The notes beneath the pieces were generated by a model. That model was not told where the DNA came from and did no database searches. It saw nothing but the letters and a program-made list of their open reading frames with translations. DNA of 64,000 nucleotides. Source: Halofilum ochraceum. Lineage in GTDB: Bacteria; Pseudomonadota; Gammaproteobacteria; XJ16; Halofilaceae. The stretch lies in assembly GCF_001614315.2 (NCBI RefSeq), contig NZ_LVEG02000005.1:372001-436000 (forward strand), written 5' to 3'. How positions within the stretch are numbered: the stretch's first letter is position 1; every line of letters starts with the position of its first letter. The position numbers were made by a program, and so were the translations under genes. This document shows, piece after piece, positions 24,411 to 29,797 of the stretch.

Positions 24411-24791
24411 TCAGTACCCGAGACCCCGCAGCAGAAGATCGCCATAGCCCCATATCACGGTCCCGATCAGACTCATGGTGAAACCGCCGAACTCATCCAT
24501 CAGGATCCTGCGCGTGTGGGACAGATCGCGCTCATACGCCACCGTGCCGCGAACCGGCGGCGCATGGCCCCGCCGATAGTGCAGCTTTTCCATCATCGCC
24601 GATTCGAGGTCAGCGCCGGCGCAGAGGACGCTGTGTTTCACCAGCAGCAGCAGGCCGAAGACCGTCATGATGGAACCGGAGCGGGCGAACCATTGCGGGT
24701 CACCCGTTGCCGTCGAGAGCGTCAGCGATCCGGCCGTGATGCCGATGGCGATGCCGCCGACCGCCCAGGTATTGATCAGGATTTCACGCAT
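24411..24791 (-). CDS. Small membrane protein of unknown function
   Basis: A 126-residue protein with three hydrophobic stretches (about 7-28, 36-56 and 101-122) separated by a charged loop containing MMEKLHYRRGHAPPVRGTVAYERDLSHTRRILMDEFGG. I do not recognise the family. It is the last gene of the minus-strand group that contains the ligase-like protein, DoxX and the acidic-repeat protein, 156 bases behind the latter. Membership in the same functional unit is inferred from position only. A weak GGGGTGA precedes the ATG. Confidence 0.6.
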   Translation of the reverse strand: MREILINTWAVGGIAIGITAGSLTLSTATGDPQWFARSGSIMTVFGLLLLVKHSVLCAGADLESAMMEKLHYRRGHAPPVRGTVAYERDLSHTRRILMDEFGGFTMSLIGTVIWGYGDLLLRGLGY

Positions 24792-24947
24792 GGCCGGTCA
24801 CCCCGATCGCATTCCGAAATCCGCTGCTCCCGATCGTGGCACGGCTGCCTTGTGCCAAAAGGTATACCGCACCGGGCGATTCGGCCGCTCGCGAGAACGG
24901 CAGAGCGCCCGATACGGTATACCCGTCATGAGTCCGCAAGCGACTGT

Positions 24948-25253
24948 TCAGTAGCCGCTTTCGGACTCACCTTCCGCTTCGCCTTCAGCTTCACCTTCGG
25001 CCTCGCCTTCGGCTTCACCTTCAGCTTCGCCTTCGGCCTCACCTTCGGCCTCGGCTTCGCCTTCCGCTTTGCCTTCGGCTTCACCTTCGGCCTCAGCCAC
25101 GGTCATCTGGTACCCGTCTTCCGCGACCGCATCGGAGACAATCGCATGCCCTCCCGATACGCCCGCCACGAGTGCCAGCACCGGTGCCGCATAGGCGATA
25201 CCGCGTGACAGCCTGCGAAGCAGTTGCTGCCGTTGCGCTTCTTCTTGAGACAT
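24948..25253 (-). CDS. Small membrane-anchored protein with acidic GEAE-repeat tail ending in Tyr
   Basis: A 101-residue protein with three parts: a charged N-terminus (MSQEEAQRQQLLRRLSR), one hydrophobic helix (about 18-40, AYAAPVLALVAGVSGGHAIV) and a 47-residue tail from about residue 53 composed of Glu, Ala and Gly in a GEAE register. The tail has one Lys (EGKAEGEAE) and ends ESESGY. The coding DNA is a degenerate 12-bp tandem repeat. A strong AGGAGGAGAT lies directly before the ATG, so it is very likely translated well. The composition recalls both the repeat part of HvfA-type RiPP precursors (without Cys) and the glutamate-rich tubulin tail that ends in Tyr. It could be a substrate of the ligase-like protein encoded upstream; this is inference. 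Confidence 0.8.
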   Translation of the reverse strand: MSQEEAQRQQLLRRLSRGIAYAAPVLALVAGVSGGHAIVSDAVAEDGYQMTVAEAEGEAEGKAEGEAEAEGEAEGEAEGEAEGEAEGEAEGEAEGESESGY

Positions 25254-25343
25254 ATCTCCTCCTGAGACTTTGCGACCTGAGTCGCATTACACGAGGTCAA
25301 AACGCACCTCGATCGGCTCACCGCCCGGGCATGAGGGGAACGA

Positions 25344-25763
25344 TCAGAAATCATTACCCCTCACGAGGATGTACAGCGCCACGAACAGCAGTGTGACCTG
25401 GAACATCATGCCCCCGAGCGGGTGAGTCGGCGTGGCCATAAAATGCCACTGCCCCCAGTGCTCCATGACGATCGCACCCAGAAGAACGGGTACGGTCATC
25501 ACGGCACCAAGACGGGTAATCCAGCCGTTGGTCAGCGCGCCGAGCACGATCAACACGCCGGCACCGATTTCGGCAAGGGCTACGGGCAGCGCCATCAGAT
25601 ACGGCAGGTCCATCGCCGCGGCAAAACCGGCGATGCCGCTCCCCATGAACTTGTCGATACCCATGTACAGAAACACGGACACGAACGCCGCCCGTACGAA
25701 CCAGTGCGCATGCCGGCCGACGTTATCGAGGGTTTCGTCTCCGGTATTGATCGGCGCCCCCAT
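25344..25763 (-). CDS. DoxX-family membrane protein
   Basis: A 139-residue protein with four helices. DoxX-type features include FVRAAFVSVFLYMGIDKFMG in helix 1, ALAEIGAGVLIVLGALT, and a C-terminal MMFQVTLLFVALYILVRG. DoxX proteins are quinone- or redox-linked membrane proteins of unclear function and occur in many RiPP-like clusters. GAGGAGGATCAGATC precedes the ATG at 25761-25763. It lies 108 bases after the ligase-like gene and 90 bases before the acidic-repeat gene. Confidence 0.85.
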   Translation of the reverse strand: MGAPINTGDETLDNVGRHAHWFVRAAFVSVFLYMGIDKFMGSGIAGFAAAMDLPYLMALPVALAEIGAGVLIVLGALTNGWITRLGAVMTVPVLLGAIVMEHWGQWHFMATPTHPLGGMMFQVTLLFVALYILVRGNDF

Positions 25764-25871
25764 GATCTGATCCTCCTCTTGTCATCCGTGCAGCGATTGC
25801 CGCGCAATCGCAGTGTGGCCATCACTTCGGCATCGTGGCCTTCCGTAATGTGTGGTTGAGCATGGCAGGTA

Positions 25872-28370
25872 TCACCGCTCCGCAGAATCCGTAGTTGTAC
25901 GGACCGCTTCCGCGTTATCCGCCGTCGACGCATCACGGTCCGCGGTCGCGATCAGTTCCAGTACCCGTTCCACCGAAATATCCGCATCAACGGCGTATAT
26001 CGGCCGTTCATGCAGCCATTCGGCGATACGCGATACGGTCTGCCGGCCTGGGTGTTCCACACCCGGCTCGGAGACCTGGGGCAGCAGATATGCGAGGGCC
26101 GCATGGACCCCGATACATTCGGCTTGGTCACTGCCATGTTCATCCGTCGCGTTCCGCGCGATCACGATGGCCTCGACCGCCTGCAGTGCGCGTCCCGGTT
26201 CCGATGCCTCCAGTATCCCGGTGCAGCCGAACGACCAGAGTGGCATCCCGCGTGTCGATCCGTCGGTCGCTTTGGGATCATGCGCGCGCCGCAAGGGCAA
26301 TCCGATCCCGTGCACACAGCCGGTCTCCGCCAGATCGATCCGTACACCACCGCTGACCTCGTTCCCCGTTTCTTCGCGGATGGCCAGTGCAAGGCGATCG
26401 TCAGCAGCGCGCCCCTCTCGGCACAGCAACACGTTGCGCGGCGCAGACTGGTCGCCCGTACTCGGGAACCGGACGAGTGCCGCCGGCAATGCGATTTCAC
26501 CGGCCTCCGGCGCCCGTGCCAGGAAATCTTCGACCAACCAGGGCCCCAGCGCCGCAAGTGAGAGGTTTTCCGCGATGGCCGTACCATCGGTCATCACGCT
26601 GAAACCGCGGCGCGATCGCACGATCTCGACCTGTCGTGCGGCCGCATCACTACCACTGCGCTGCATGGGTCCGAAGATCCGTTCCAGGCGCCGAAACGCG
26701 GGGCGGCTCCAGCCGCGAACCTCGAGCGGGTTTGCGCCACAGAGAAGCCCCAGCCGATGGATAGGCTCCGCCACGTCGATGCGGCCCGCATCGCTATTCG
26801 TCCGTGGTTCGGTATCCTCCCGATCAGCCCCATGGGGCGACGTCTGGATCAGGAGTCCATCGCGCGACCAGTCAGCAAACGCATCCCAGACCTGGCGTTC
26901 AACCGCGGCGACGGCCTGCGGATCACTGTCGGGTGCGAGTCCGCTGGCGGCAACGACCTCGCGCACCACCGTATCCGGATCACCACCGTCGCTCGCATGC
27001 AGCCAGATCAATGAGGCCGTCGGATTTGGCGCAAAGACCTCTCCACTGGCTTCGGCGTACAGCGTGAGCTGATCGTCGGCGATCACTTCCGCGACCCGCC
27101 AGCGGCGTGCGCTCGGATTGCGCATGGGCCGGCCCGCGACGTGCCGCGCAAGGATCATGTCCGCGCGCCGCGGGAACGGGAAGAACGGGAGATACCGCTC
27201 GGGTTCCGCTGTCGGGTATACGCGCCGAAATCCCCCTGCACGCCCCGCTTCCGCATCGGCCTCGGCGGCGAGCTCTTCCGGGGTGCCATCGGCGCCGACA
27301 CGCTGACGGTCGGGTTCATTGAGCCCGACCAGGGCAACCATGTCGGTCACCAGCTGGTGTTTGACCTGTTCCTCGACGACACCACCGTCGTTGGGGGCGG
27401 CACAGACCCCCAGCGAGGGGCTCAGATTGCATTCGAGCAGCCAGGGATTGAGGTCTTCGTCGACCAGACAGTCGAGTCCGATCAGTTCGTAGCACCCACG
27501 TGGATCGGCCTCGAAACGGGCGGTCGCCGATCGCATGGGCTCGCGCGCCCCGATCATGGTAAGGGCGATCAGATCGTCAATACGTTCAAACAGCAGCTGA
27601 TCGTCATGTCCCTGTTCCCGGAGCCAGGCGCGATAGCGCGTGAAATCGATGAATACGACCGGCGATTCGGCATCGGTGTTGCGCGCATTCACATCGGGAT
27701 TGGTCTGGTGGACGTAGGGATTCGACCGGTCCTCGAGCGTGTACGGACAGGACGCCAGTTTGGCGAATCCCTGTTCGTATACGTAAACGCGTAGCGGTTC
27801 GATCGAACTCACAAGGACATACAGGCGCAGGACGTATTTGCGGTCCTTCATCAAGTGAGGTCGGTGCAGATACCCCTGGACCAACCAGCGGTCATCAGTC
27901 GGCGTCTCGGCTACATCGTCCAGCAGCCGGATATCGCGTCCGCGTGCGCCGTTTTTCGGTTTCAGCATCCAGAGCTGATCGGGATTATCCGCCGCCGCTG
28001 ACAACAGTGCATGATAATCCCTCGGCATGCTGTAGACGGTCGGGACGAAGGCCGTCCGCCAGGCCAGCGCACTGCCCTCGCCGTACGCCGCTGTCGCGCG
28101 TTCGCGCATCGCGCGCAGGGTCGCGTCCAGGCGACTCTTGATCGTCAGGCAATTGTTGCCGGGGATATGGTTGACTGTGCGGTTCGGCGCCGTGGCCCGG
28201 AAAACCGCACGCTCGGGCATACCGGTATGCCAGCACGTATCCCACTCGCCTTCATCGCCCGGCTCCCACAGCGCCGGGTCCAGGGCGTCCTCGAAGAAAA
28301 CATCCTGTTCGCGTTCCCTCCGGCCCGACAGCCGGTAGCGGAAACGGGCTGACTGATCGGCTTCACTCAT
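25872..28370 (-). CDS. Fusion protein: tubulin-tyrosine-ligase-like ATP-grasp + PqqD-like + degenerate HprK-like domains
   Basis: An 832-residue cytosolic protein. Residues about 60-350 read as a TTL-family ATP-grasp ligase: NHIPGNNCLTIKSRL, P-(T)VYSMPRDY, the ATP-binding LWMLKPKNGARGRDIRLL (about 133-150), WLVQGYLHRP, KYVLRLYVLV and the metal-site ELIGLDCLVDEDLNPWLLECNLSPSL. Residues about 425-510 resemble PqqD peptide-binding domains (SGEVFAPNPTASLIWLHASDGG ... WSRDGLLIQ). The C-terminal third (about 585-720) resembles HprK-like kinases, but the P-loop position reads CREGRAADDRLALAI instead of a GxGKS/T loop, so it cannot bind nucleotide in the usual way. The start at 28368-28370 has GGAGGT four bases upstream. 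A role in ATP-dependent tailoring of a peptide or protein end is inferred. Confidence 0.75.
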   Translation of the reverse strand: MSEADQSARFRYRLSGRREREQDVFFEDALDPALWEPGDEGEWDTCWHTGMPERAVFRATAPNRTVNHIPGNNCLTIKSRLDATLRAMRERATAAYGEGSALAWRTAFVPTVYSMPRDYHALLSAAADNPDQLWMLKPKNGARGRDIRLLDDVAETPTDDRWLVQGYLHRPHLMKDRKYVLRLYVLVSSIEPLRVYVYEQGFAKLASCPYTLEDRSNPYVHQTNPDVNARNTDAESPVVFIDFTRYRAWLREQGHDDQLLFERIDDLIALTMIGAREPMRSATARFEADPRGCYELIGLDCLVDEDLNPWLLECNLSPSLGVCAAPNDGGVVEEQVKHQLVTDMVALVGLNEPDRQRVGADGTPEELAAEADAEAGRAGGFRRVYPTAEPERYLPFFPFPRRADMILARHVAGRPMRNPSARRWRVAEVIADDQLTLYAEASGEVFAPNPTASLIWLHASDGGDPDTVVREVVAASGLAPDSDPQAVAAVERQVWDAFADWSRDGLLIQTSPHGADREDTEPRTNSDAGRIDVAEPIHRLGLLCGANPLEVRGWSRPAFRRLERIFGPMQRSGSDAAARQVEIVRSRRGFSVMTDGTAIAENLSLAALGPWLVEDFLARAPEAGEIALPAALVRFPSTGDQSAPRNVLLCREGRAADDRLALAIREETGNEVSGGVRIDLAETGCVHGIGLPLRRAHDPKATDGSTRGMPLWSFGCTGILEASEPGRALQAVEAIVIARNATDEHGSDQAECIGVHAALAYLLPQVSEPGVEHPGRQTVSRIAEWLHERPIYAVDADISVERVLELIATADRDASTADNAEAVRTTTDSAER

Positions 28371-29266: not shown

Positions 29267-29797
29267 TCACCCGAGCGCCGCGCGGTACCGCAGGGTCGAA
29301 CCGGCCACGCCGAACTCTTGCGGCACACCGTGACCATGCCGCTGCGCGAGCAATGCGATCAATGCCATATGGTGGATGGTATGGCTCAGGACGAAGTGGC
29401 ACTCACGCTCGAGTGTTGATTCGATCCCGGTGACGGTCCGGTCATCGGCGGCGCAGGTATACCGCACCCGGACCGACACGGGCGCATCCAGGTTGGGCAG
29501 CACCGCCAGACGCTCACGGATCCCGGCGATACGCTCGCGGGCGACCCGCGGATCCGTTTCGACCGCCGGGTCCCGCGCACGGGTCTCATAGTCAATGCGT
29601 CCATCGGTTCCCTGGAGCAGGCTCTCGTAGTGCTCCAGCACATGACGCACATGTTTGCCGATAGGATCCGCCGAAACCTGTTGGTGGGTGTACTCGTCCG
29701 GATCGAGACCGGCCAGCAGCCCGTCGATCCGGTCAAGCTGGTCCAGATTGTCGCGGCAGAGTGCCGCAAGATTCGCCGTCGCAGCCTCGGTCATCAT
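29267..29797 (-). CDS. DinB-like four-helix protein
   Basis: A 176-residue protein of the DinB/YfiT-like superfamily. The likely metal-site histidines are in GKHVRHVLEHYESLL (near 47-54) and LSHTIHHMALIALLAQRHG (near 138-143). Family members include thiol-dependent transferases and many proteins of unknown activity; no specific reaction can be named. GGAGG lies upstream of the double ATG at 29792-29797. The 253 bases between it and the next gene hold no clear feature. Confidence 0.8.
   Translation of the reverse strand: MMTEAATANLAALCRDNLDQLDRIDGLLAGLDPDEYTHQQVSADPIGKHVRHVLEHYESLLQGTDGRIDYETRARDPAVETDPRVARERIAGIRERLAVLPNLDAPVSVRVRYTCAADDRTVTGIESTLERECHFVLSHTIHHMALIALLAQRHGHGVPQEFGVAGSTLRYRAALG

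Follow-up and report, generated by a model that had tools for sequence, protein, structure and literature searches.

Enzymes of the TTLL family glutamylate proteins, an activity that has been studied as a means by which eukaryotes regulate their microtubules and cilia. In human RPGR, TTLL5 glutamylates the Glu-Gly repeats (PMC13052805); in TTLL6, elongase selectivity is reported to depend above all on residue Q180 (PMC12366701). The window presented here, which is the whole stretch of 64,000 nucleotides of Halofilum ochraceum that was analysed, bears an 832-aa ligase related to these enzymes and, on the same strand, a 101-aa protein with a Glu-rich repeat. Salt-loving bacteria carry this TTLL-like enzyme together with small exported Glu-repeat partners in every genome examined that holds an intact copy, and the partners look like the dedicated substrates of the ligase. 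The features of the locus are the following:

24411..24791, minus strand, 126-aa membrane protein (ORF)
24948..25253, minus strand, 101-aa protein with leader and Glu-rich repeat, predicted substrate of the DoxX-associated subtype (ORF, locus comparison)
25134..25253, minus strand, leader of the 101-aa protein, residues 1-40 (RQQLLRRLSRGIAYAAPVLALVAG), common to other partner types
24951..25097, minus strand, E-(G/A)-E-(G/A) tail of the 101-aa protein, residues 53-101, ending ...ESESGY (repeat and composition analysis)
25344..25763, minus strand, DoxX-family membrane protein (PF07681, E-value = 1.9e-9)
25872..28370, minus strand, 832-aa ligase with TTL ATP-grasp, PqqD-like and P-loop-less PEPCK/HprK-like parts (ORF, Pfam, PDB, models)
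27336..28184, minus strand, TTL catalytic core of the ligase, residues 63-345 (Pfam PF03133, E-value = 2.5e-56)
26841..27119, minus strand, PqqD-like domain of the ligase, about residues 418-510 (PF05402 in 40/41 family members)
25875..26771, minus strand, C-terminal PEPCK/HprK-superfamily fold of the ligase without P-loop, residues 534-832 (structure model)
29267..29797, minus strand, DinB_2-superfamily protein, conserved neighbour (PF12867, E-value = 6.5e-7)

The initial annotation described the 832-residue protein (836 aa, if an ATG further upstream is the start) as a TTL-type ATP-grasp domain joined to a PqqD-like domain and a degenerate HprK-like C-terminus. The first of these assignments is borne out by a PF03133 match of 191.5 bits against a curated cut-off of 20.1, and the TTL domain was matched by Pfam in all 41 members of the ligase family. 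The core of the window member displays the motifs KPKNGARGR, KYVLRLYVLV, TNPDVN, LDCLVD and LLECNLSPSL. Concerning the PqqD-like domain, the assignment holds at the level of the family, where 40 of the 41 members match PF05402 (best E-value = 9.6e-9), but the window member lies below the cut-off (E-value = 0.015). Profile searches returned no sequence family for the last 299 residues; nevertheless, the model of residues 534-832 (pLDDT 82.7) matched PEP carboxykinases along its full length in a fold search (E. coli PEPCK: Z 15.1, 262 residues, rmsd 4.2), and a Walker A P-loop was found in 0/40 family members. HprK is a member of the PEP carboxykinase superfamily; it was not among the matches listed in the fold search, to which no weight was given. 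Since the fold is PEPCK-like and the P-loop is absent, the degenerate HprK-like label is reasonable for a fold and not for a kinase. In three members (G266, G750 and G732) the TTL domain is there, but the C-terminal part is not complete within a single frame; all three keep the partner. In G266, the third species of the genus (L011:3427-5646), a deletion cuts the ligase inside its PqqD-like domain and fuses it, in a different frame, to DoxX. The acidic partner of G266 is intact, and the deletion may be genuine or may stem from faulty assembly.

A PDB search with the ligase gave TTLL6 (E-value = 1.9e-34), TTLL7 (E-value = 6.4e-28), 5vlq (E-value = 1.8e-13), which we take to be a TTLL3-type chain, and TTL (E-value of about 1e-9). 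The predicted structure, built from 41 family members with a mean pLDDT of 81.4, was aligned with TTLL6 at Z 34.0 (rmsd 2.4, 364 residues) and with TTL at Z 23.8. By sequence and by fold the 832-aa ligase belongs to the TTL fold family and, with glutamylases as its closest solved relatives, it is a putative glutamylase. The Mg/ATP ligands D300, E313 and N315, as well as K178 and R182, are invariant in 41/41 members. At the position equivalent to Q180 of TTLL6 the family has Arg (20) or Lys (21) and never Gln, so that all 41 members show the non-Gln residue of a glutamyl initiase (TTLL4/5 type), and the position equivalent to H362 is Leu in 41/41. The engineered TTLL6 chains 6vzq-6vzs have Ala-Arg at the Q180 site and Ile at the H362 site, substitutions that reportedly served to convert an elongase into an initiase.

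Two active-site motifs depart from those of the eukaryotic enzymes. In the motif K-F-D-(L/I)-R, as found in the chains of TTLL6 and TTLL7, the Asp, a residue not taken here as a defining feature of the TTL fold family, is replaced by Val in 41/41 members with K and R retained (V180 in the window ligase, at 27831-27833), and TNYSIN is changed to TNPD(I/V)N. Because of these two changes, the handling of ATP or substrate may differ from that of TTLL6 and TTLL7. The invariance of the KYVLR and TNPD changes, and the fact that members of the TTLL family use Glu, Gly or Tyr, would also suit a different donor on the same substrate, with glycine, tyrosine or another amine added to the Glu side chains. 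We consider such a donor unlikely, since in sequence and fold the glutamylases are closer to the ligase than either the TTLL3-type chain or TTL.

The 101-aa protein belongs to a family of partners with a common build: a short basic start leads into the motif RxLLxxLSR and a hydrophobic stretch that contains Y..P, and after a short spacer, in many cases with (Y/L)MLA at its end, come the E-(G/A)-E-(G/A) repeats. In the window member, the hydrophobic stretch of the leader spans 17 residues from residue 23 (hydropathy 1.72), and the acidic repeat that was originally noticed is coded by a tandem array at 24956-25094. Neither Pfam nor NCBIfam has an entry that matches the family specifically; the Pfam matches of the 101-aa protein to Trypan_PARP, NESP55 and TrAA12 were of low complexity and under the cut-off, and were discarded. 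Type A partners consist of the tail only and are usually located 20-160 bp past the ligase. Type A', the form of the window, was found at 8 loci and has a spacer like IYSDV..GYYM, with a DoxX gene always present. Type B (26 proteins) has the leader and an acidic stretch followed by a c-type cytochrome domain with CxxCH, of the SoxA/TsdA type. In type B partners (L113-L130, L053, L133, L136 and others) the Glu repeat is a linker, and some of these proteins are encoded on contigs other than the ligase's. The leaders of types A and B are near-identical in some genomes (33 of 40 residues at L136 and L140), while the remainder of the proteins differs, and the leader may represent an address label common to tail-only proteins and acidic-linker cytochromes.

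Over 72 tails the composition is 40% Glu, 25% Ala, 25% Gly and 0.6% Asp, and Glu is nearly always flanked by Gly or Ala. As the tails are A/G/E low-complexity sequence, their conserved composition alone is weak evidence. The reading of the tail as mere halophilic acidity was set aside, because negative charge alone would tolerate Asp, which is nearly absent. An extension of the partner at its C-terminus, as performed by TTL on tubulin, is suggested by the partners of the window's genus, which end in GY and recall the terminal Tyr of alpha-tubulin. However, the last residue is variable (Gly 28, Ala 6, Ser 4, Tyr 3; n = 46) and the acidic stretch of type B lies far from the C-terminus, so we regard this extension as highly improbable. 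With an internal stretch in type B and no fixed final residue in type A, modification is more likely to fall on internal Glu side chains than on the C-terminus. The original idea of a TTL enzyme acting on an acidic tail is supported as a system by the co-occurrence described below, with the correction that the acidic stretches in front of cytochromes point to a reaction on side chains. Another alternative is that Glu side chains are cross-linked, as in graspetides, to Lys, Ser or Thr residues within their own tail. The combination of an ATP-grasp enzyme, its peptide-binding domain and a small protein with a leader would bring this to mind, and Lys is present in many tails. In a graspetide such nucleophiles are expected in every core, whereas 31 of the 72 tails lack Lys and 16 lack Lys, Ser and Thr altogether, making cross-links of this type impossible in the latter; with a catalytic domain that is TTLL-like, there is very little likelihood in this alternative.

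The ligase was present in 3/3 genomes examined of the window's genus. A single-protein scan of GTDB-species contigs, which relied on exact short patterns, gave one close relative in an uncultured Ectothiorhodospiraceae bacterium, and a plasmid collection searched with the ligase gave no match. A phylum-wide sample of 398 genomes led to two further gammaproteobacterial families, with ligase matches in 29/163 and 45/201 genomes. Comparison of 45 loci around the ligase, 43 of which have a complete TTL domain, revealed at least one protein with leader and Glu repeat in 43/43 of the latter. The partner profile was then run on the same 364 genomes of the two families, counting only matches that include the leader and leaving out a few weak tail-only matches elsewhere. 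Partners were found in 28/28 and 44/44 genomes with an intact TTL domain (72/72) vs. 0/135 and 1/157 genomes without one (1/292), an association with a Fisher p of 3e-76 when shared ancestry is ignored. The single exception (G928) has a type B protein and no ligase that could be found. Ligase presence is patchy inside genera, and ligase and partner are lost together in two genomes: G752 retains a 60-residue ligase remnant with stops, adjoining the DinB gene, and G832 a truncated ligase, both without partner. In three genomes (G762, G980 and G1003) partners are established on contigs other than the ligase's, and for this reason simple local hitch-hiking is disfavoured. The link between ligase and acidic protein had been drawn from neighbourhood, with the reservation that ligase homologues might never occur near acidic-repeat proteins. 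The opposite was found in loci and genomes alike, and the link is strengthened by these counts and by the co-loss.

Fewer of the other neighbours remain with the system. The four ORFs of the proposed neighbourhood unit are on the minus strand as placed, the DoxX assignment stands and the acidic protein belongs to the unit; DoxX, however, is restricted to 8 loci, exactly those with a type A' partner, and homologues of the 126-aa membrane protein occur at two other loci only, one of which is the truncated-ligase locus. A GAF gene near the ligase is confined to the window's genus, and both this gene and the 126-aa protein are outside the system. The DinB-like gene belongs instead, being the second most conserved neighbour with a homologue in 41/45 loci. 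Genes for an ECF sigma factor, a zf-HC2 anti-sigma-like protein, DUF302 and DUF3047-like proteins recur nearby as well (L131, L136, L140, L145 and others). The frequency of the DinB gene, and the fact that the acidic proteins are linked to the ligase by co-occurrence only, could be taken to mean that these proteins are a scaffold or effector and not substrates, with, for instance, the DinB protein, a cytochrome or a small molecule as the actual target. Against this, Glu-rich tails are the usual targets of TTL enzymes, the leader and the Glu repeat are all that the partners have in common, and G752 keeps its DinB gene despite the loss of ligase and partner; we therefore judge a non-substrate role very unlikely.

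Other TTL-like genes were met in the same searches. Most Pfam TTL matches over 274 gammaproteobacteria were short stretches over the final motif of the ATP-grasp domain, in ORFs of 300-350 aa that are not TTLs, and were rejected. In other gammaproteobacteria, four TTL-like genes that stand alone and code for about 330 aa (G222, G182, G105 and G041; L048-L051) have no adjacent acidic partner, and the partner link is thus specific to the fused ligase. One of these genes is located downstream of motor/flagellar-type genes. Additionally, G194 (L012:11759-13804) has a TTL-only gene of 367 aa, without PqqD/HprK part, followed by a gene for a 248-aa exported protein with the leader TRRKALKSI...SEWTRPLVESVVLPAHAQTS; this protein may be a TTL partner of a different kind.

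Taking these data together, the reading that we find reasonably probable is a bacterial leader-guided modification, in which an amino acid, probably Glu, would be ligated onto Glu side chains of the partner before export. The conserved N-terminal leader would be gripped by the PqqD-like domain, possibly helped by the kinase-like domain fused to it, and the TTL domain with ATP would activate Glu side-chain carboxylates in the E-(G/A) repeat. A free amino acid, most likely glutamate, could then be joined to the activated carboxylates, giving branched glutamyl side chains like those that TTLL enzymes build on tubulin tails and RPGR. The modification would take place in the cytoplasm, with export of the partner via its hydrophobic leader afterwards; for the type B cytochrome, haem attachment requires arrival in the periplasm. 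This would leave the partner with a densely charged, polyanionic tail or linker, either within the periplasm or on the outer side of the inner membrane, and one may speculate that it is used for metal or cation binding or for docking of redox partners.

Neither a bacterial polyglutamylase of this kind nor the partner repeat was found in the literature searched, which left out the survey of ATP-grasp amidoligases by Iyer et al. 2009, said to discuss bacterial TTLs. Tentatively, and with slightly less than even confidence, we propose that bacteria have their own version of the glutamylation code known from tubulin and RPGR. In it, a TTLL-type enzyme guided by the leader would place Glu branches on dedicated exported Glu-repeat proteins and on periplasmic cytochromes. 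The polyanionic surface created in this way would be tunable and would serve metal binding or docking for electron transfer, and the system might reflect a bacterial ancestry of TTL enzymes. If this holds, acceptor choice by TTLL-type enzymes could be studied in a simple, soluble and genetically tractable model, leader-guided protein modifications would gain a new class, and the system would be informative on the origin of the TTL family.

Among described systems, the HPr-rel-A system (NCBIfam TIGR04353, PqqD_rel_X) likewise has PqqD-like and HprK-like parts together, but in the ligase these are fused to TTL and the P-loop is lost; TIGR04353 matched 5/41 members, weakly (best 0.0018). The resemblance extends to the PqqD/RRE RiPP pathways, graspetides included, through a small ribosomal protein with a conserved leader, a PqqD-like domain that putatively binds it, and an ATP-grasp ligase. 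As in those pathways, a conserved-leader precursor is linked to the enzyme, here by loci and by genome counts. Unlike them, the system has a TTL catalytic domain and a long repeat core, often without Lys, Ser or Thr; its leader also fronts a cytochrome, and no protease or transporter was seen with it. With the eukaryotic glutamylases TTLL5, TTLL6 and TTLL7 the ligase shares the fold (Z 34 to TTLL6) and the Mg-ligand residues, while it differs in being bacterial, in its fused PqqD-like and PEPCK/HprK-like domains and in the D-to-V change in KFDLR. Instead of tubulin, the predicted acceptors are exported proteins with a leader, or cytochromes. The known acceptor that comes nearest to the partner tails is the Glu-Gly repeat of RPGR; Gly/Glu-rich and disordered, these tails are like the TTLL glutamylase targets, tubulin tails and RPGR.
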